52,267 bases of DNA, from positions 1 to 52,267 of the forward strand of contig JAFVAI010000030.1 of NCBI GenBank assembly GCA_017480545.1, in the 5' to 3' direction. Each line of letters begins with the position of its first letter. Position 1 is the stretch's first letter. This document shows positions 14,621-52,158 of this stretch, piece by piece. Made by a program: the position numbers and the translations under genes. The notes beneath the pieces are model-generated. The model saw nothing but the letters and a program-made list of their open reading frames with translations, made no database searches and was not told the origin of the DNA. This DNA comes from Schwartzia sp. (in: firmicutes). Lineage in GTDB: Bacteria; Bacillota; Negativicutes; Selenomonadales; Selenomonadaceae.

Positions 14621-15556
14621 ATGGCGGGGCAACGCGGCGCGAAGCAAAGCGCCCATACCGGGCACGACATGGGCGCGTATTTCGGGGAGCTACTTGTCAT
14701 TCTCTCGGCTGTGTGCTTTGGGTTGATGCCTTTCCTTGCGAAAATCATTGAGGCGCATGGCGGGGATGCGTATATGGCTGCGTTCGGACGCTTCTTTTTC
14801 GGCGGACTGATGCTGTTCGCGGTTCTCCTGCCGCGTGGCGTTTCTGCTTTGCGCCTCGACGGACGGCAGTTCAGCGCGGTTTTCCTTCTTTCTGTGTTCT
14901 ACGCGGTTACGCCGATATTGCTTTATTCTTCATACCGCTATATGGATTCGGGACTGGCGACGACACTCCATTTCACATTCCCCGTTATGGTGCTGGTTTT
15001 GGCGGCGCTATTGTTCCGTGTTCGCCCCAACGTGCGGCAGGTGGTGTGCGTGTTGGTTTGCATCGCGGGCGTCAGCCGTCTTTCGATAGGCGGGGCGATG
15101 GATGAAACGGGAATCGCGCTGTCGGTCTTGTCGGGCGTGACATACGCGCTGTATATCGTCTTTTTGGACAAAAGCAAGCTGCACGAGTTGCCTGTCTTGG
15201 TCATCGCGTTTTGGCTTTCGGCGTTGGCTTCCGTCGAGATTGCGGCGGGCGCCGCGCTGTCGGGAAATTTCCGGTTGCCGGCCGACGCGGCGGCATGGCT
15301 CGCAATGGCGGCGTTGGCGTTTGTATCGACCGTACTGGGACTGGTGTTGTTCCAAAAAGGCTTGCTGTATTGCGGCGCGGTACGGGCCTCGCTTTTGAGC
15401 GCGTTCGAGCCGTTGACCAGTGTTTTCGTCGGGTGCTTGGTTTTCCATGAGGTGTTGAGCCCGTCGTCCGCGTTCGGTATTTTCTGCATACTGTCGGCGG
15501 GCGTGTTGCTGGTATTTCCCGCCGCCCCGGCATTGTCCGGGCAAGACGGGCGATAA
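14621..15556 (+). CDS. EamA/DMT family permease
   Basis: A 311-residue protein with ten predicted membrane helices in two EamA repeats (first ELLVILSAVCFGLMPFLAK, second beginning near ALSVLSGVTYALYIVFLD). It is a drug/metabolite transporter of unknown substrate. The ATG at 14621 is chosen because GGAGG lies seven bases upstream. The tautomerase start lies 22 bp downstream, so the two were probably co-transcribed before the insertion. Confidence 0.9.
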   Translation: MAGQRGAKQSAHTGHDMGAYFGELLVILSAVCFGLMPFLAKIIEAHGGDAYMAAFGRFFFGGLMLFAVLLPRGVSALRLDGRQFSAVFLLSVFYAVTPILLYSSYRYMDSGLATTLHFTFPVMVLVLAALLFRVRPNVRQVVCVLVCIAGVSRLSIGGAMDETGIALSVLSGVTYALYIVFLDKSKLHELPVLVIAFWLSALASVEIAAGAALSGNFRLPADAAAWLAMAALAFVSTVLGLVLFQKGLLYCGAVRASLLSAFEPLTSVFVGCLVFHEVLSPSSAFGIFCILSAGVLLVFPAAPALSGQDGR

Positions 15557-15578
15557 TGCAGGAAAGGAGGGGAATGGT

Positions 15579-15611
15579 ATGCCGTATGTCAACATCAAGA
15601 TAGTTTGCTGA
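15579..15611 (+). pseudogene. 4-oxalocrotonate tautomerase, 5' fragment interrupted by prophage
   Basis: AAAGGAGG followed by an ATG at 15579 encodes MPYVNIKI and then Val-Cys-stop. MPYVNIKI with Pro at position 2 is the family N-terminus of 4-oxalocrotonate tautomerase, which should continue for about 60 residues. After codon 8 the sequence departs and stops, and prophage genes follow. The break is best read as the left attachment junction. Confidence 0.7.
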
Positions 15612-15627
15612 ATCTGACTAAATCCGG

Positions 15628-15656
15628 AAAGCCCGCAGTAATGCGGGCTTTTTTTG
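15628..15656 (+). terminator. Rho-independent terminator at the prophage left end
   Basis: AAAGCCCGCA (15628-15637) pairs with TGCGGGCTTT (15642-15651), loop GTAA, then T-rich. It would stop host transcription entering the prophage from the EamA-tautomerase operon. Confidence 0.88.
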
Positions 15657-15683
15657 TATGCAAAGAAAAGAGAGGATTCAGGA

Positions 15684-15953
15684 ATGATGAAGTTTTTTGC
15701 GGTGCTTGGAACAGCGGCATTGCTATCAGGCTTCATTTCGGATGATGGGAAGCCGATGTCCGAGGTGTACGTCGTAAAACCCGGTGACACAATTTGGAGC
15801 ATTTCGGAAAAGTTCTTGCCGAAGAATACGGCGGAACGAAAGTACATATTGCAATTCCAGGACGAAATCATAGCGGCGAATCCAGAAGTAAAAGCGAACG
15901 GATACAACATTCAGCCGGGTGACAAACTGGTCATCAATTATCGAGTAAAGTGA
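15684..15953 (+). CDS. Small exported LysM-domain protein
   Basis: An 89-residue protein with a weak N-terminal hydrophobic segment (MMKFFAVLGTAALLSGFIS) and one LysM domain (VYVVKPGDTIWSISEKFL ... YNIQPGDKLVIN), residues about 28-88. LysM binds peptidoglycan. It may be a wall-binding accessory protein or a lysogenic conversion factor; its position at the prophage edge fits a moron. AGAGGATTCAGG precedes the ATG. Confidence 0.8.
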   Translation: MMKFFAVLGTAALLSGFISDDGKPMSEVYVVKPGDTIWSISEKFLPKNTAERKYILQFQDEIIAANPEVKANGYNIQPGDKLVINYRVK

Positions 15954-16331: not shown

Positions 16332-16613
16332 ACGCAGAGCGGCGGGGGCGCAAGCCCCTGTTAATGCAGGAGGGCAAAGCCTTCGCGGTCGCAACTCCGC
16401 ATCGGACATGGCAGAAAAGTCCGTATAAAACCCCGGTCGCAGACGCCTAGCGTGATTTTTCCCGGCTTTTGAAAGGAAAAACCGGGTGAGAAAGTCGAGT
16501 AGCTTTTCGGTACTTTTCAGGAAGCATCCGCGTGGGCGGGGTAACACTTGGAGAAAAGGACGCGGCGACCCTGCCGAAGACATCAGGGAATCAGCACAGA
16601 GGGAGGAAAGCCT
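16332..16613 (+). other. 282-bp non-coding stretch with several hairpins, possible structured RNA
   Basis: No frame here has a credible start and codon pattern. It has a GGGGC-GCAA-GCCCC tetraloop hairpin (16345-16358), a CGGAC/GTCCG hairpin near 16403-16423, an ACGC-CTA-GCGT hairpin near 16445-16455 and a CCCGG/CCGGG stem near 16465-16486. The motif GGTCGCA occurs twice. It does not match a riboswitch I know. It may be a leader RNA or a phage ncRNA. Confidence 0.4.
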
Positions 16614-20964: not shown

Positions 20965-21429
20965 ATGATACCATCGAAAAATATGCTCACGCCCATGCGA
21001 TTGCATCTGGAAATCCGAAAAAAGTGCAATTTCTTCTGGCTACGCGATATTCGTGATGTGGACATCTCGCAATGCTGCGCAAAATGTTTCATCGGGGAAA
21101 AAGACAATCGCGTTTATTATGGGACGCTGCACAAGTCACAAGCAGTGCTGGACATCGAAATCAATCAGCATCCCGCCGCGAAAGCCTATTACCTGTGCGG
21201 ATTGAGCGATGGATTTGTGTGGGCGCTGAACACGCACTGCGCATTTGTGCCAGCTCCCGGTTCGGAAGTCCGTATCGACAACGACCGAATTTTTCTGGTC
21301 ATCACGAATGCGAAGCGCATCCACTTTTGGGATTACACGCCGCATCCAAAGGGCAATTATACAGAAGCCCAGAGAACCTGCCGCAACTGGATATTCGCGA
21401 ATTACATAAAGGACGGGATGCCGTTATGA
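20965..21429 (+). CDS. Hypothetical Cys/Trp-rich phage protein
   Basis: A 154-residue protein that overlaps the following DUF1848 gene by 4 bp (ATGA). It has several Cys (CNFFW, CCAKCF, YLCG, THCAF, TCRNW) and looks like a small metal-binding or beta-rich domain. Unknown function; the coupling suggests it works with the DUF1848 protein. Confidence 0.65.
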   Translation: MIPSKNMLTPMRLHLEIRKKCNFFWLRDIRDVDISQCCAKCFIGEKDNRVYYGTLHKSQAVLDIEINQHPAAKAYYLCGLSDGFVWALNTHCAFVPAPGSEVRIDNDRIFLVITNAKRIHFWDYTPHPKGNYTEAQRTCRNWIFANYIKDGMPL

Positions 21430-22869: not shown

Positions 22870-23720
22870 ATATCCGCGAGATTTCTACTTCTCGGCTGCA
22901 CGAGTATGAAAATAACCCTCGCAACAATGATTTGGCGGTCGAGAAGGTTAAATACAGTATTGAGCGGTTCGGGTTTCTGTTTCCTATCGTCGTTGACATG
23001 AATTTTGTCATCGTCTGCGGGCATACGAGAGTCCGTGCTTGCCGTGAGCTGGGGATTCAATCTGTTCCCTGCATTATCGCCGACGAGCTTTCGGAGGAGC
23101 AGATTAACCTGTTTCGGCTTATCGACAATAAGACCAGTGAGTACAGCGATTGGGATTTTGAGAAACTCAAAGACGAGCTGTCCACTGTCGATCTTACGTT
23201 GGATAAAAACCAGCTTCTGCTGGAACGGTTCGAGCTGACTGCCGAAGTATTCGACATCGAGCCGGAGCAAGCGGAAATCAAAATTCCTGCATTCAATTTC
23301 ATGGGCGTGGATGATGACAAGCCGAAAGAGAAAAAGCCGCCTGTAAGCACGATTTATTCCAACGGGCTGGTTGATGGTGAACCCGAAGACGTGGAAATCG
23401 TAGGTGAAATCCCAGAAATCGTTCAGGAAGAATCGGGAGGTTCCGAGCTGTCGGCCCCGGAGGAGAAACATGAAAGCTCCGAGAGCGGCGACCCGCAGCA
23501 GGAAAATGGCGACAGCGAGGAAGCTGTGACAGACAAGCCTAAAAAGTCCAAAGCTGTTCTGCCTTTTTGCCAGTTCCGTTTCGGCGATGTGGCGTTTTTC
23601 ATTTCGCAGGTTGAGCTTGACCGGATGAATGATAAATACGCGGAGTATATTGATTCCGGGGCGGCTTTGGAATGCAGCTTCGTGGATTATTTGCTGAAGG
23701 GAGTTGAAACCGGTGATTGA
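22866..23720 (+). CDS. ParB-like nuclease-fold protein 2
   Basis: A 284-residue protein: ParB domain at residues 1-115 (VIVCGHTRVRACRELG box, LIDNKTSEYSDWD), a Ser/Glu/Gly-rich linker (about residues 175-225), then a C-terminal module (CQFRFGDVAFFISQVELDRM) like the end of ParB 1. The linker is acidic and probably disordered. Overlaps neighbours on both sides, so the three are one translational unit. Confidence 0.88.
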   Translation: MNIREISTSRLHEYENNPRNNDLAVEKVKYSIERFGFLFPIVVDMNFVIVCGHTRVRACRELGIQSVPCIIADELSEEQINLFRLIDNKTSEYSDWDFEKLKDELSTVDLTLDKNQLLLERFELTAEVFDIEPEQAEIKIPAFNFMGVDDDKPKEKKPPVSTIYSNGLVDGEPEDVEIVGEIPEIVQEESGGSELSAPEEKHESSESGDPQQENGDSEEAVTDKPKKSKAVLPFCQFRFGDVAFFISQVELDRMNDKYAEYIDSGAALECSFVDYLLKGVETGD

Positions 23721-25107
23721 TTTCGTGGAAAAAGTACCCATTGAGGACGTTACCGGGTCAGAATACAACCCACGCGAAATAACGGAAGAAGCGTTGCAAG
23801 CATTACAGCATAGCATAAAGAGATTCGGAATGGTGAAGCCGCTGATCGTGAACTCCTCCAACAATGTCATCACGGCGGGGCACCAGCGCAAGAAAGCGGC
23901 GACGGCCATCGGCTTGAAATATCTTCCCTGCATCCGCATCAACAGCCCGAATTTGCAGGATGAAATCTTGTTCAACCTCATGCACAACTCCATTGAGACG
24001 AGCAAGACCACAGTGCGGCTGGAAGATTACAAGGTCGGCGCGTATCATTATTGCGAGCCAGCAAAAATCAAGATCGAGAGTGAGCCGAAGAACGTGCTGA
24101 TTTGCTCGGAAATCACGAAGCTCATGTCGCGATACGGCGAGTGGGGCAGCGTGGTCACGGACGGCGACGGCAACGTGATTCTCAACGCGGAATACGCCTA
24201 TTGCGCGAAGCGCTTGGGGTATGGCGTTCTCGCTTATGGGATTCCGAATGAAGACGTGCAGGAATTTTTGGCGTGCATGGGCGTCGAGTATGGCAAATAT
24301 AATTTCGACCACCTCGGCATCAAGACTTACCATCAGTTCCTCGCCCAGCCTAAACGGTTGAGTACGGATGGGCGGCAGTCCAACACGTCGATTCTGTATG
24401 AAAAGCATCTTATCCCGCGATTGAATAAGACGGACAGCATTATCGACATTGGCGCGGGTCGCATGGCTTATGTGAAGCTGCTGAAATCCAAAGGCTACAA
24501 CATCCATGCTTATGAGCCGTCGCTTATGGTAAAGGGCGCAAACAAGCTCGATATGAAAGGAATAATCGCAAACATCCTCAACGCTGAAAAACAGGTTCGG
24601 CTGAACGGCCTGTTCGATTGGTGCGTTTTGGAGGCAGTGATTAACTCTGTCGTAGATGATGAGTTTGAAAAAGCGGTTCTTACCGCTTGCAATGCCGTGT
24701 TGAAGTCCACGGGCGTTTTGATTACTTGCACGAGAAATATCGCTTACGTCCAGAAGGCATACGAAAAAACGAAGTTGTCGGCTGGCGCGGGAGATTGCCT
24801 CTGGTATCTCGATGACAAGAATTATACGCTTGGCGTGACCAACGGCATTGTATTCAAGCAAAAATTCCACACGAAGGAGAGCTTCGTCGAACTGCTCGGC
24901 AAATATTTCGAGCAGATTGAAGTGCTTTCGTGCTCGGCAGGGTATATTTATTGCGCGTGCTCCACTCCGAGGCAACTGCCGCGCGAGGTTTACGACGAGT
25001 ATCTTGAAAAAGAACTCAATATCGAATATCCGGGCGGTTTCAAGCACAACAAGCATCGGGGATTGATGGAAGCATTGCTCGCAAGGATTGCCGAGAGGTA
25101 TGCCTGA
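23713..25107 (+). CDS. ParB-like protein fused to a class I SAM methyltransferase domain
   Basis: A 464-residue protein from a GTG. ParB domain at residues 1-90 (VITAGHQRKKAATAIG), a linker with a second small domain (KIKIESEPKNVLICSEI), then a class I methyltransferase with motif I IIDIGAGRMAYVKLLKSKG (residue D245) and the acidic end HAYEPS of strand 2. The C-terminal tail is YGGFKHNK-like. ParB-methyltransferase fusions are known in phages and probably modify phage DNA. The start GTG at 23713 is 10 bases after GGGAG. Confidence 0.85.
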   Translation: MIDFVEKVPIEDVTGSEYNPREITEEALQALQHSIKRFGMVKPLIVNSSNNVITAGHQRKKAATAIGLKYLPCIRINSPNLQDEILFNLMHNSIETSKTTVRLEDYKVGAYHYCEPAKIKIESEPKNVLICSEITKLMSRYGEWGSVVTDGDGNVILNAEYAYCAKRLGYGVLAYGIPNEDVQEFLACMGVEYGKYNFDHLGIKTYHQFLAQPKRLSTDGRQSNTSILYEKHLIPRLNKTDSIIDIGAGRMAYVKLLKSKGYNIHAYEPSLMVKGANKLDMKGIIANILNAEKQVRLNGLFDWCVLEAVINSVVDDEFEKAVLTACNAVLKSTGVLITCTRNIAYVQKAYEKTKLSAGAGDCLWYLDDKNYTLGVTNGIVFKQKFHTKESFVELLGKYFEQIEVLSCSAGYIYCACSTPRQLPREVYDEYLEKELNIEYPGGFKHNKHRGLMEALLARIAERYA

Positions 25108-25534: not shown

Positions 25535-26942
25535 TTTAATAGACGAACCAATTATCATTCGTCCCCAAGAGGGTCGGCAGGAAATGTTTTTGCGTTCTTC
25601 TGCGGACATCTGCATTTATGGCGGCGCGGCGGGCGGCGGAAAAACATTTGCGCTCTTGCTGGAAGGGTTACGCCATATTGATAATAAGCATTTTGAGGCA
25701 GTTATTTTCCGGCAATCCCGCCCACAGATTCTGAGCGCGGGCGGCTTGTACGCCACAAGCAATGAGATTTATCCGCACTTGGGCGCAACAAGCGTTATCA
25801 CGCCGAATGTCCAATGGCGGTTTCCTTCCGGCGCGAAAATTACTTTCGCCCACATGTATTACGAGAAAGAGAAATACGGCTGGCAAGGTTCGCAGATACC
25901 GCTCTTGATGTTCGACGAGCTGGTGCATTTTTCTGAGGGGCAGTTTTTCTATATGCTCTCTCGAAATCGTTCCACTTGCGGTGTGAAGCCTTACATTCGG
26001 GCAACGTGCAATCCGGACGTGGACAGTTGGGTCGCAAGTTTTATTTCGTGGTGGATTGACTCGGAAACCGGCTACGCGATCCCGGAACGGGTTGGAGTGC
26101 TTCGATATTTTTACCGTGTAGATGGCGAGATCATCTGGGCAAATACCCGTGAAGAACTCGCGGAAAAATATTGCATCAGTCCGCAGCTTTGCAAAAGTGT
26201 GACATTCATTCCATCGAATGTTTACGATAATGCTGCGCTGATAAAAAAGAACCCAGATTACCTTGCTTCCCTGAATGCGCTGTCGTTTGTCGAACGAGAG
26301 CGGTTGCTTATGGGGAATTGGAAAATTCGTCCGGCGGCGGGGCTTTATTTCGGTCGGGGGCAGACGGTTATCGTGGATTCGATACCGGACAAAATTATTG
26401 CGATTTGCCGTTCTTATGACTTAGCGGCAACAGCGATCACTCCCGACAACAAAGACCCTGACCGCACGGCCTCGGTTCTCATGGCGAAAATGCGCGGCGG
26501 AATGTTCATCATTCTCGACGTGGTTCGGGTAGCGGAGAGTGCTTCGCAGGTTCGCGATCGAGTGAGAAACACGGCTCGGAGCGACGAAATGGTTTATAAG
26601 TGCCGAAAGATTACCATTCCGCAAGACCCCGGACAAGCGGGAAAAGAACAAGCGGAAAGCTATGTGCGAGAGCTGACGGGCTATCAGGTTATCATCTGTC
26701 CGGTCAGCAATAACAAGGTCGCACGAGCAGAACCATTTGCCGCCCAATGGCAAAAGGGAAATGTCTTGCTGATGAAAGGCAAATGGAACGATGTTTTTCT
26801 CACGGAGCTGGAAGGGTTTCCCGATGCAGTCCACGATGACCAAGTGGATGCGGCGAGCGACGCTTTCACTACGTTGGCGAATGTCGGAACGTATTCGGCG
26901 CCGCCTGATATGGAAACGAAAGAAAGCTATTGGGATTTGTGA
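25518..26942 (+). CDS. Terminase large subunit
   Basis: A 474-residue protein. Walker A GGAAGGGKT is at residues 35-43 with K42, Walker B is LLMFDEL, and the C-terminal nuclease domain has YDLAAT (first acidic residue), ILDVVRV and HDDQVDAASDAF. ATPase and nuclease signatures match phage terminases of the Mu/lambda group. The ATG at 25518 is preferred over an upstream frame that overlaps the small subunit more deeply. Confidence 0.95.
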   Translation: MRKKSDLIDEPIIIRPQEGRQEMFLRSSADICIYGGAAGGGKTFALLLEGLRHIDNKHFEAVIFRQSRPQILSAGGLYATSNEIYPHLGATSVITPNVQWRFPSGAKITFAHMYYEKEKYGWQGSQIPLLMFDELVHFSEGQFFYMLSRNRSTCGVKPYIRATCNPDVDSWVASFISWWIDSETGYAIPERVGVLRYFYRVDGEIIWANTREELAEKYCISPQLCKSVTFIPSNVYDNAALIKKNPDYLASLNALSFVERERLLMGNWKIRPAAGLYFGRGQTVIVDSIPDKIIAICRSYDLAATAITPDNKDPDRTASVLMAKMRGGMFIILDVVRVAESASQVRDRVRNTARSDEMVYKCRKITIPQDPGQAGKEQAESYVRELTGYQVIICPVSNNKVARAEPFAAQWQKGNVLLMKGKWNDVFLTELEGFPDAVHDDQVDAASDAFTTLANVGTYSAPPDMETKESYWDL

Positions 26943-26961: not shown

Positions 26962-28215
26962 ATGGCCGAGGGCGTAGAAAGAGAAGTGGGTCGTACAGGC
27001 CAGTATCGTTTCGGTGGAGCTTTTTACGACGAGTTTCTCCCGAATTTACAGGGGTTGCACGGCGTAAGAGTTTATCAGGAGATGAGCGAAAACGATGATG
27101 TCGTTGGCGCTGTTCTGTTTGGAATTAAGATGCTCATTCGCCAAGCCGATTGGCTTATCCAACCGGGCGGCGACACCGAGGCTGACAAGGCCGCAGCAGA
27201 TTTTGTCAATAGCTGTATGCACGATATGCAATCGAGCTGGACGGATACGATTTCCGAAATCTTGTCTTTCTTGACCTATGGCTGGTCCGCTCACGAGATT
27301 GTTTATAAACGGCGCATGGGCCGGAGTTCAAACCCGATACTCAATTCCAAGCACGACGACGGTTTGATTGGATGGCGCAAGCTCCCTATTCGCGGTCAAG
27401 ACACGCTGTATCAGTGGGAATATAACTCAAATGACGAACTGATCGGCATGACGCAGAATCCAGCACCGTCGTACAAGCTCATTACGATACCGATTGACAA
27501 GCTGCTTCTGTTCCGAACGGAGAGCCGAAAAGATAGTCCGGAAGGGCGGAGTATTCTCCGCAACGCCTATCGTTCTTGGGCGTTCAAAAAGCGAATTCAA
27601 GAAATCGAGGGCATCGGCATCGAGCGCGATCTGGCTGGGTTTCCGGTTCTGACCGCGCCACCAGATGTCAACGTATGGGACGTGAAAAATCCGGAAATGG
27701 TTCAGCTCAAAGCGGCTTGCGACCGGCTCATAAAAAATATTCGCCGCGACAGCATGGAAGGTATTACTATTCCAAGCGGCTGGAAATTGGAACTGCTGAC
27801 TTCAGGAAGTCGCCGTCAGTTCGACACAGGCGCTATCATCGACCGATACGATACCCGAATCGCGATGACGGTGCTGGCGGATTTCGTGTTGCTGGGACAC
27901 CAGAGAACCGGATCGTATTCGCTGGCAAGCGACAAGACGGAACTGTTTATTTTGGCTATCGGCACTTATCTCGACAGCATTTGCGAAGTGTTCAACAACA
28001 AGGCTATTCCGCAGTTGATGGACATGAATAAAAAGGCTTTCGCAGATATTACTGATTATCCGCGTCTGTATCACGGCGACATCGAAACGCAGGATATTAC
28101 TGCACTTGGCAATTATATCAAGGACATGACGGGCATCGGAGTTTTGACGCCGGATGAACAGTTAGAAGATTATGTCCGACGGCAAGCGTCTCTACCGGCA
28201 CGAGTTGGCAGGTGA
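26962..28215 (+). CDS. Portal protein, DUF935 (Mu gp29-like)
   Basis: A 417-residue protein. SENDDVVGAVLFGIKMLIRQADWLI and WRKLPIRGQDTLYQWEYN resemble the DUF935 portal family found in Mu-like phages. It forms the dodecameric ring at the capsid vertex through which DNA is packaged. Next to terminase and MuF in the usual order. Confidence 0.9.
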   Translation: MAEGVEREVGRTGQYRFGGAFYDEFLPNLQGLHGVRVYQEMSENDDVVGAVLFGIKMLIRQADWLIQPGGDTEADKAAADFVNSCMHDMQSSWTDTISEILSFLTYGWSAHEIVYKRRMGRSSNPILNSKHDDGLIGWRKLPIRGQDTLYQWEYNSNDELIGMTQNPAPSYKLITIPIDKLLLFRTESRKDSPEGRSILRNAYRSWAFKKRIQEIEGIGIERDLAGFPVLTAPPDVNVWDVKNPEMVQLKAACDRLIKNIRRDSMEGITIPSGWKLELLTSGSRRQFDTGAIIDRYDTRIAMTVLADFVLLGHQRTGSYSLASDKTELFILAIGTYLDSICEVFNNKAIPQLMDMNKKAFADITDYPRLYHGDIETQDITALGNYIKDMTGIGVLTPDEQLEDYVRRQASLPARVGR

Positions 28216-32711: not shown

Positions 32712-33728
32712 ATGGACAACAACGAAATCATGTATCGCATTGCAAAAAAGTGGAAGCCCAATCAGTATCTGAGCAATATGAGCATGGCGTATTTTTACGA
32801 GGGCGAATATGCCGCCCGCCGCCTGTTCCCGCTCTGCCCGGTGCAGCTTTCTTCGGGCTTCTTCTACACCTTCAGCAAGGCTGACCTTGCCCGCGACAAC
32901 GTGCAGCGCAAGCCGCTCTATGGCAAGGTTGCTCCGGCGGTCATGGGCGAGTCCGACCAGTCCTACCACTGCAAAGTGGATCAGGTCATCGCCGGTATCG
33001 ACCAGATTGCGACCTTGAATTTCACTCGCTCCGGCGCTCCCGGCGCTGCCGATCCGCGCCGCGCTCGCGTGCGTTTCATCTCCGAGCAGATGAACATTCA
33101 TCAGGACATCCAGTTCGCCAAAAACTTCTTCCACTCCGGCGTGTGGGCGGATGAATGGACTGGCGATGTCACCGAGGACAAGGCAAACAAGAAGTTTGTC
33201 AAGTTTACGGACGGCAACAGCAACCCGATTGAGCTTTTCGATGAGCTGATTACCCGCATCAAGCGCAACGGTCGCCGCACTCCGAACAAGTTGGCTCTCG
33301 GCGTTGATACGTTCATCGGTTTGAAGCATAACCCGTTCGTGATGGAGCGCATCAAGTACACTGGCACCAGCGCGAATCCGGCTGTGGTCAACGAGCAGGT
33401 TCTGGCGCAGCTTTTCGGCTTGCAGGAAGTTGTCGTTCTCGACAGCACTTACAACGCCGCTTCGCTCGATGCTCCTGCCGATATGCAGTTTATCTGCGAC
33501 AGCAAGGGCGCTCTGCTTTGCTACGCTACGGATAATCCGCAGATTGACGAGCCGTCCGCTGGCTACATCTTCACTTGGGATATGCTCGGTAACGGTCAGT
33601 ACATGAGCACGACTCAGTATTCCGCTGATGACGCGACGCATACGGACTATATCGAGGGCCTGATGAGCTACGATATGCACAAGTGCGCCGACGATCTCGC
33701 CGTGTACCTCGCGAACTGCGTTGACTAA
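32712..33728 (+). CDS. Major capsid protein
   Basis: A 338-residue protein. Its place between decoration and connector genes, length, and segments such as LFDELITRIKRNGRRTPNKLALGVDTFIGLK and RFISEQMNIHQDIQF fit the HK97-fold / Mu T-like major capsid family. The ATG at 32712 is chosen because GGAGG is 9-10 bases upstream. Confidence 0.85.
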   Translation: MDNNEIMYRIAKKWKPNQYLSNMSMAYFYEGEYAARRLFPLCPVQLSSGFFYTFSKADLARDNVQRKPLYGKVAPAVMGESDQSYHCKVDQVIAGIDQIATLNFTRSGAPGAADPRRARVRFISEQMNIHQDIQFAKNFFHSGVWADEWTGDVTEDKANKKFVKFTDGNSNPIELFDELITRIKRNGRRTPNKLALGVDTFIGLKHNPFVMERIKYTGTSANPAVVNEQVLAQLFGLQEVVVLDSTYNAASLDAPADMQFICDSKGALLCYATDNPQIDEPSAGYIFTWDMLGNGQYMSTTQYSADDATHTDYIEGLMSYDMHKCADDLAVYLANCVD

Positions 33729-36675: not shown

Positions 36676-38202
36676 ATGTCTGGGACTTTTACTATCGGCG
36701 AGAAGAAAATCCGTCCGGGTACGTATTTCCGCCGTGAGAACAGTGGCGGGCCTGATGTTGCCGGTGCTATCAATGGCTACGCGGCAGCGGTGTTTCAGTC
36801 GGATTGGGGGCCGTTGAACCAGCTTTTTGACATGGACGTGAGTATGCAGAATGACATCTCGGACTATTACGGGACGGACGAGCACACGCGCATCATCAAA
36901 GAGGCTTTTACTGGCGGTGCAACGACGGTGCGGGCAATCCGGTGTGGCGATGACGATGGTGAGCCGATGACCGTTACGCTGGAAATGGCGGAATCGCCCA
37001 CGGTTGAAGCCGGTGCGGGCGAAGGAGCTGCCTCCGGCGACGGTGCAGACCTTGACGCGCCGGACAGCGGAAGCTCCACCCCCGCAGCTTCGACGACGAA
37101 CGATGCCGTAAACGGTGTAGTTATTACGGCGGCTTATCCCGGCACACGTCCTTTCGCGGTCAGCGTTCGCACGAACCTGATTACGGACCAGCGCGAGTGC
37201 GTCATCTACGACGGCACGGTGATTTTTGAGAAGGTTTCCTTTGAGGCCGGAAATAACGAAGCTGCAAACCTTGTGGCTGCGATGAGCGCGTCCAAAAACT
37301 TCATCGCAAAAATTTCCGGTACGGCAACGGGCAAGCTGAAAACTGTCACGCAGGTTCCGATGGAAGGCGGCAAGAATCCGACCGTTACGACAGCTTCTTA
37401 TGACCGTGCTTTCAACGCGTTGGAGCGCGTAAAGTGGAACTGCCTCATCGTGGACACGGACGACGCGGCTGTGCATCTCTTGGTGCAGAGCTTCATTCAG
37501 CAGAGCTACGAGCAGGGTCATTTTGGTATTGGCTGTATCGCTGGTCTGCCGACGCAGGATTTCGACGAAAGGACGACGCTCGCAGCTTTGTTCAACGACG
37601 AAAAGATGGCTTACATCGTCAACGGCGGTTGGCTTGCAAGCGACGGCACTGAGTACAAGGGCTATATCGCGGCGGCTCGGATCGGCGGTATGATTGCTTC
37701 TTTCGAGACGAATTCCTCGCTGACGCACACCGTCATCAAGGGAGCCGTGAAGCTGCTTGAACCGCTGACGAACGGCGAAATGATTAAGGCAGAGAAGAAA
37801 GGCTGCATTTGCCTGTCGCTGAACGATGACGACCAAGTGTGGCTCGACAACGCCATCAACACTCTCGTAACCCCCGACGTGGATCAGGACGAAGGCTGGA
37901 AAAAGCTCCGTCGGACGAAGTGCCGCTTCGAGCTGATGGACCGCGTGAACACCACGACGGACAAGCTCGTTGGCAAGGTCAACAACGACACGGACGGGCG
38001 GCAGACGGTCATGGCGGCAGCGCAGAAAGTGCTGAACACGATGACTGGCGAGAAGAAAATCATGGATAACAGCTATATCTATGAAGACCCGGCTAATCCG
38101 GCTGAGGGCGATAACGCTTGGTACAAACTGGCGATTGATGATATCGACAGCCAAGAGCACATCTACCTCACCTATCAGTTCCGCTTTTCGCCGAACAGCT
38201 AA
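36676..38202 (+). CDS. Contractile tail sheath protein (XkdK-like)
   Basis: A 508-residue protein. The N-terminus FTIGEKKIRPGTYFRRENSG, the segment AAVFQSDWGPLNQL, and the C-terminal region with LTYQFRFSPNS fit phage tail sheath. It contains an unusual Gly/Ala/Ser/Asp-rich insertion at about residues 110-145. The sheath contracts to drive the tube through the envelope. Confidence 0.92.
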   Translation: MSGTFTIGEKKIRPGTYFRRENSGGPDVAGAINGYAAAVFQSDWGPLNQLFDMDVSMQNDISDYYGTDEHTRIIKEAFTGGATTVRAIRCGDDDGEPMTVTLEMAESPTVEAGAGEGAASGDGADLDAPDSGSSTPAASTTNDAVNGVVITAAYPGTRPFAVSVRTNLITDQRECVIYDGTVIFEKVSFEAGNNEAANLVAAMSASKNFIAKISGTATGKLKTVTQVPMEGGKNPTVTTASYDRAFNALERVKWNCLIVDTDDAAVHLLVQSFIQQSYEQGHFGIGCIAGLPTQDFDERTTLAALFNDEKMAYIVNGGWLASDGTEYKGYIAAARIGGMIASFETNSSLTHTVIKGAVKLLEPLTNGEMIKAEKKGCICLSLNDDDQVWLDNAINTLVTPDVDQDEGWKKLRRTKCRFELMDRVNTTTDKLVGKVNNDTDGRQTVMAAAQKVLNTMTGEKKIMDNSYIYEDPANPAEGDNAWYKLAIDDIDSQEHIYLTYQFRFSPNS

Positions 38203-51288: not shown

Positions 51289-52158
51289 ATGGCAGTAAGG
51301 AAATCGCAGATGTTTCTTCCCAACCCGACCACGGGTCAGCAGGAAATTCATCACATGGAAACCGAGCTTGAACAGATTGCGGACATGGCCGCATTCATGC
51401 AAGGGCTGAACAAAAAAGCCTCCGCTGCGGAGGTCCGCAACGCTATCGAAGCCGGTTATTTTCGCCGCGCTCGGAAGGCGTTCACGCTTGCAGACCTGTC
51501 GGCTGCGGTGGCGTCCGGCAACTACAACAAGTACGGCATCCTGCCGGGGGACTATTTCACTGGCGCGTCGGGATACACCTATATCTTCGCGGGCGCGAAC
51601 CCGCTGAAAGGCACCGTCGCGGGTTATCCGATTACGGCTGACCACGCCGGGCTTATCGTGGACACGCACGAGACATCGAAGTGGAACAACACGGACGACA
51701 CGACGGGCGGCTATGTCAGCTCTGTCCTGCACAGTTACCTCGTCAACACGGTGCTCCCGAAGGTCAAGGCCGACCTCGGCGGCGATAGCCATTTGTACGC
51801 ACATAGGAAATTATACTCGACGTCAATCAACCCGACAGGCTACAACCGTTTTGGTACGGCTACGGGTTGCACGAACAACTGGGCGTGGTCGGAGAACCAG
51901 TATATCGCGGCTCTGTCGGAGATGCAGGTGTACGGCGGGACGGTTTGGTCTTCGTCCGGACACGACACGGGCGAGGCGGATCAGCAGCTCGACGTGTTCA
52001 AGCGGTTCAAGCATACGGAAATTTTCGGCAACGAATATCCGTGGCTCCGCGTTGTTGCTTCTGCCACGTACGCGGCGAGTGCGAACAACGGCGGGGCCGC
52101 GAGCCATAACAGCGCGTCGTACGCGTATTATGTCGCCGGGCTTATTGCTTTCCATTAA
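51289..52158 (+). CDS. Lectin-fold-like tail protein, candidate DGR target protein
   Basis: A 289-residue protein. N-terminal helical docking part (about 1-65), then a beta-rich region and a C-terminal domain with SENQYIAALSEMQVYGGTVW, YPWLRVVASATYAASANN and the final YYVAGLIAFH. WLR followed by a run of small and aromatic residues close to the stop is what DGR variable proteins with a C-type-lectin (FGE-like) fold look like. It is the most probable receptor-binding protein of this phage. AAGGAGG precedes the ATG. Confidence 0.78.
   Translation: MAVRKSQMFLPNPTTGQQEIHHMETELEQIADMAAFMQGLNKKASAAEVRNAIEAGYFRRARKAFTLADLSAAVASGNYNKYGILPGDYFTGASGYTYIFAGANPLKGTVAGYPITADHAGLIVDTHETSKWNNTDDTTGGYVSSVLHSYLVNTVLPKVKADLGGDSHLYAHRKLYSTSINPTGYNRFGTATGCTNNWAWSENQYIAALSEMQVYGGTVWSSSGHDTGEADQQLDVFKRFKHTEIFGNEYPWLRVVASATYAASANNGGAASHNSASYAYYVAGLIAFH
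52042..52158 (+). other. Candidate variable repeat (VR) of a diversity-generating retroelement
   Basis: The last 38 codons, beginning at the Trp of YPWLR, encode a run rich in Ala, Asn, Ser and Tyr. Many codons end in C (TAC, AAC, AAC, GGC, GCC, AGC, AAC, AGC, TAC), as expected where AAC codons in a template repeat are mutated at the adenines. The extent cannot be fixed without the template, which is outside the window. Confidence 0.6.

Follow-up and report, generated by a model that had tools for sequence, protein, structure and literature searches.

The window, the whole stretch of 52,267 bp analysed here, is the entire contig C5 of a draft Schwartzia sp. genome (115 contigs, 82% complete), and in it a host transporter gene gives way to phage genes. 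This boundary raises the question of which host gene was split, at which base, and by what kind of enzyme. The stop of the EamA gene at 15556 is followed by a GGAGG-type ribosome-binding site and by an ATG at 15579, exactly 22 bp past the stop. The frame opened by this ATG reads MPYVNIKIVC*, ten codons with the stop codon at 15609-15611. The initial annotation had described this arrangement exactly, and had read it as the start of a gene for 4-oxalocrotonate tautomerase (4-OT) into which a prophage had inserted at codon 8-10, with an attachment site within 15579-15611. Since the first 23-24 of 24 nucleotides of the remnant are identical to the starts of intact 4-OT genes of the same genus, the resemblance is not due to chance. 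The left junction comprises the following features:

14621..15556, + strand, host EamA-family transporter gene, the left chromosomal flank of the prophage (PF00892, E=1.4e-33)
15579..15601, + strand, host-derived 5' end of 4-OT, codons 1-7 plus two bases of codon 8
15573..15622, + strand, attL: B half-site 15573-15596, AA, P' half-site 15599-15622 (GATAGTTTGCTGAATCTGACTAAA)
15626..15653, + strand, phage-side stem-loop with a T-run, just inside attL (-19.3 kcal/mol, z=-4.4)

None of 200 shuffles was as stable as the stem-loop, which is probably an intrinsic terminator insulating the phage from host transcription on the EamA side. It was not listed by a consensus terminator scanner, probably because the stem takes up part of the T-run. 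From 15684 rightward, the contig carries phage genes in the order LysM, small ORFs, ParB-like, terminase, portal, F-like, head, tail and baseplate, among them:

15684..15953, + strand, first phage gene, LysM-domain protein (PF01476, E=8.9e-10; phrog_30153, E=2.8e-20)
16333..16400, + strand, type-P5 twister ribozyme between small-operon genes of the phage (RF02684, score of 49.9 bits, over the gathering score)
25584..26942, + strand, phage terminase large subunit (PF03237/PF17289; phrog_979, E=5e-157)
26962..28215, + strand, phage portal protein, Mu-type (PF06074, E=1.7e-39; phrog_113)
32712..33728, + strand, phage major head protein (phrog_1005, E=1.4e-74)
36676..38202, + strand, phage contractile tail sheath (phrog_279, E=5e-80)
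51289..52158, + strand, probable diversity-generating retroelement target protein (position matches the target genes of the related phages G030 and G221)

The contig ends about 100 bp past the probable target gene, in an avd-like gene, and its end MSVPKGKQNKSKIEFD is as in the avd-like gene of G030. In their TR/VR pairs, G030 (G030:C4) has 19 mismatched sites and G221 has 15, all of them at A. The segment 51289-52267 is probably part of a diversity-generating retroelement, and C5 probably breaks at the VR/TR repeat. Several other elements were observed in these phages. Like the twister, two type-II hammerheads, also small self-cleaving ribozymes, lie between small-operon genes, here of G221 (L093 3786-3850 and 10960-11024, minus strand). 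One phage holds two copies, ~61% identical, of an unknown protein family (FFWLRDI...CCAxCFIG; window 20965-21429 and L065 19058-19504), of which more members adjoin a large serine recombinase (LSR) in L082 and L088. At 23713-25107 of the window, a ParB-like domain is fused to a methyltransferase-like domain, directly 5' of the terminase genes.

The window ends inside the phage, and the right junction lies on another contig, C39. When the genome was searched with the 4-OT protein, C39 matched from about residue 5-6 onward, with the native start missing. This sequence (IKITKEGNVTADQKRQ...) is the remainder of the gene without its first codons, which the initial annotation had expected at the right prophage end. 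The order on C39 (locus L034) is an IS end, phage small ORFs, the 4-OT remainder, LysR and MFS, and the junction reads ...TTTAGTCAGATTCGGCAGAC-CATCAAGAT-CACCAAAGAAGG... ahead of the remainder. The segment L034 1801-1992 matches PF01361 (52.9 bits, profile positions 6-58), as expected of the 3' part of a 4-OT gene, and the LysR gene after it is the one that follows 4-OT in relatives. The two junctions share one sequence:

15593..15601, + strand, 9-bp CATCAAGAT common to attL and attR (attR copy at L034 1800-1808)

An identical short sequence at both phage-host junctions is the mark of site-specific recombination, and this direct repeat falls inside the interval in which the attachment site had been predicted. 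Phage genes lie directly inside both junctions, LysM and the terminase-to-tail genes on C5 and the phage-type small ORFs on C39, two of which have PHROG matches. A tautomerase fragment at the start of C76 was considered as the right half and rejected; it is of a different tautomerase type (SAFYVLIEENEPENWGVGGK), and the gene after it, named by eye, is alcohol-dehydrogenase-like. Close to the right end of the prophage, L066 5459-6022 encodes a phage-borne PemK/MazF-like growth inhibitor, whose position is conserved in G221.

Rejoining the host flanks over CATCAAGAT (to L034 1809-1992) gave an uninterrupted 68-aa 4-OT ORF like the intact gene at the empty site of relatives, again as site-specific recombination would have it. 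The same LysR gene is present in 4 of 10 other genomes of the genus, and in all four (G001, G006, G007 and G009) an intact 4-OT gene stands beside it. EamA, intact 4-OT and LysR are adjacent in G001, G007 and G009, with EamA 56-57% identical, whereas G006 has the intact 4-OT and LysR but another gene upstream instead of EamA. Thus the 4-OT of relatives is intact at the same place rather than truncated, and the right prophage boundary does not lie in another gene, either of which would have spoken against the prediction.

Both junctions establish that the gene is split, and the knock-out of the tautomerase by lysogeny proposed in the initial annotation would follow from this. The left fragment is MPYVNIKIVC* and the right fragment starts VGEAHAGNLFSQIRQTIKITKEG, so that in the lysogen Pro1 is separated from the body of the enzyme. 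Catalysis in the 4-OT family needs the free N-terminal Pro1. At the right junction, a single in-frame start was found upstream, and the product that it gives, VGEAHAGNLFSQIRQT-IKITKEG..., lacks this catalytic proline; therefore the split copy should be inactive in the lysogen. The other option raised at the outset, that the phage restores the 5' end of the gene, finds no support in this fusion. Only the EamA/LysR-linked copy is lost by the host: a full-length 4-OT paralogue is intact on C111 of the same genome and probably covers the loss. Precise excision would restore the split copy.

When the phage flanks were rejoined, the resulting attP was TTTAGTCAGATTCGGCAGACCATC-AA-GATAGTTTGCTGAATCTGACTAAA, a 50-bp palindrome of 24-2-24 structure whose arms match at 21/24 positions and whose central AA lies inside the shared 9 bp. 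As a control, all pairs of positions in both end regions sharing 4 bp were joined blindly (21,304 joins): the CATCAAGAT junction alone scored 21/24, and the next best scored 16. No other palindrome of the same kind scoring at least 18 was present elsewhere in the prophage contigs. Among 189 genomes of the family, the palindromic attP pattern occurred only in the present genome (G000), plus one match with 3 mismatches in G193 that was taken as chance. An imperfect palindrome of ~50 bp around a dinucleotide that is identical in attB, here AA, is what an A118-type site presents, and by analogy the form is that of the attP of large serine integrases. The crossover dinucleotide is most likely the AA at 15597-15598, in Lys codon 7. 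The prophage is therefore in 4-OT as the initial annotation had it, with the likely exchange point marginally to the left of codon 8-10.

Three LSRs were found in the genome, one on C45 and two adjacent on C96. The latter (591 and 526 aa; G000:C96 10472-13809, L064) follow lysis-like genes on a second phage-like contig. The C45 LSR (469 aa; PF00239, PF07508 and PF13408; phrog_95 integrase, E=7e-137) has the resolvase, recombinase and zinc-ribbon domains of the A118 type and resembles the A118 and TP901-1 integrases in sequence. It is the sole integrase found in the prophage. Contig C45 carries, in order, an RT-like end, an amidase, the LSR, a repressor, replication genes, a small-gene operon and an IS at its end. 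Its start looks like the C-terminus of a reverse transcriptase, with 32% identity to the G030 one, and the bridge from C5 to C45 is synteny with G030 and G221. The virus G221, which is one contig of 64.8 kb, has homologues of the C5 genes, of the LSR and of the replication genes of C45 arranged in the same order, and its homologues of the attL-side genes (C5 16614-17202) are found among those of genes from the right end of C45. The bridge from C45 to C39 is a shared IS, the start of C39 resembling the opposite end of the same kind of IS as the C45 end, with a 3-bp flanking match (GTT) and open frames in register on both sides. This multi-copy IS (L034 1-135 and 4380-4525; L066 right end, C45 26410-26559) breaks the assembly and appears to lie inside a small phage gene. 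Because of the G221 gene order and of the IS, GTT and frame match between C45 and C39, the three contigs, unjoined in the assembly, are most likely one prophage of an estimated ~67 kb, for which we infer the order C5-C45-C39.

Serine integrase genes normally adjoin attP. In the inferred contig order, the LSR gene is separated from attR by ~24 kb and from attL by ~41 kb, and the usual, though not strictly defining, placement of the integrase beside attP is not seen. In G221, a distance of about 17-20 kb separates the LSR from the homologues of the genes that flank attP here. The LSR relatives examined (~70% identical) lie neither at 4-OT nor at the same half-sites. A further integrase might conceivably be hidden in a contig gap, since the three phage contigs are unjoined. 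We give about even chances to the reading that, in this phage group, the LSR gene is placed between the modules for lysis and replication, ~20 kb from its attP, and state it as a possibility since it presupposes this order of the contigs and that no other integrase is present. If this were true, attP would be free to move in the phage genome independently of the integrase, and remote integrase-site pairs would escape discovery pipelines that demand an integrase within 500 bp of the site; proximity pairing of recombinases with att sites would miss a class if the remote enzyme acts here. In G221 itself (L095, L093), a 14-bp repeat, CCTTGACGGTATCA, is present near both ends as a candidate att core; its right copy adjoins a DNA-repair-polymerase-like gene (named by eye), and the attP rebuilt from it is not palindromic.

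Other ways of producing these junctions were weighed. The palindrome arms could be the terminal inverted repeats of a DDE-type (Mu-like) transposing phage, with the shared bases as a target duplication of 8 bp (ATCAAGAT). Formally the geometry would allow this, with arms GGTCTGCCGAATCTGACTAAAT and AGTTTGCTGAATCTGACTAAAT around 8 bp, and the structural families of the portal, F-like and gp48-like proteins are of Mu type. However, the symmetry runs on through the supposed duplication (ATC-AA-GAT, 3/3 pairs), and no MuA/DDE transposase was recognised among the phage proteins scanned, which comprise part of the small ORFs; an LSR is present instead. Moreover, transposable relatives would be expected to share their ends, yet the related phages G221, G030 and G199 lack these terminal sequences. 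We therefore regard transposition as very unlikely.

Integration by a tyrosine integrase with the 9-bp repeat as its core appears slightly less probable still. A 9-bp core in a disrupted gene is generally common for such enzymes too, but tyrosine integrases (PF00589) are absent from C5, C45 and C39, the four found in the genome being on C17, C18, C19 and C27, and G221 has none; the 24-2-24 symmetry about a dinucleotide fits serine integrases. From the length of the 4-OT remnant, 23-24 bp, and from the fragmented draft genome, it could be suggested that the remnant reflects chance similarity, gene decay or a chimeric assembly, with no attachment site at all; we give this next to no weight. Two junctions on separate contigs have the same core, together they give back an intact host gene and produce the 50-bp palindrome, and the gene order of the host flanks is that of relatives. 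An assembly chimera is thus excluded by the two independent junctions.

Taken together, we are highly confident that the prophage integrated at 4-OT by conservative site-specific recombination, likely through the C45 LSR, and that this copy should be inactive in the lysogen. In the proposed sequence of events, the attP of a temperate contractile-tail phage would recombine with an attB at the coding start of 4-OT, in the neighbourhood EamA / 4-OT / LysR, the exchange most likely falling on the AA in Lys codon 7 and the 469-aa LSR being the likely enzyme. After integration, the left side would keep MPYVNIKI and then a stop, and the right side IKITKEG onward without the native start; lysogeny would inactivate this copy and precise excision would restore it. 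These results define the attachment site to the base and offer a candidate serine-integrase/att pair from a bacterial family for which little phage biology was found. They also show that the boundary of a prophage, and the gene that it disrupted, can be predicted correctly from a gene remnant of 23 bp in raw sequence. A prophage in a coding gene is of a well-known kind; new here is another example, with 4-OT as the target, and no earlier description of a prophage in a 4-OT gene was found in the literature searched.

With Mu and Mu-like phages, the 4-OT prophage has in common related portal, F-like and gp48-like virion proteins; it differs by an LSR and a palindromic attP in place of a recognised transposase, and by ends that are not common to its relatives. 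The LSRs catalogued by Durrant et al. (2022) are of the same enzyme class, their attP and attB were likewise rebuilt from attL and attR, and coding sequences are common among their targets. In contrast, to be retained in that catalogue an LSR had to lie within 500 nt of its predicted att site (PMC10083194), a filter that would remove an arrangement like the one here; such a distant pair therefore could not be part of it, and the word 'tautomerase' is absent from the main text of that paper. The comparison with Listeria phage A118 shows both likenesses and differences. The target is comK for A118 and 4-OT here, the dinucleotide is GG there and most likely AA here, and the integrase gene of the 4-OT prophage would be ~24 kb from the nearer att site in the inferred contig order. 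Excision is regulated in A118, which is not known for the 4-OT prophage. In both cases, attB lies in a coding sequence that is split by the prophage (PMC3556126), attP is a 50-bp imperfect palindrome around the crossover dinucleotide (PMC3556126, PMC3783163), a length that an integrase dimer is expected to contact (PMC3783163), and the integrase belongs to the same three-domain family.
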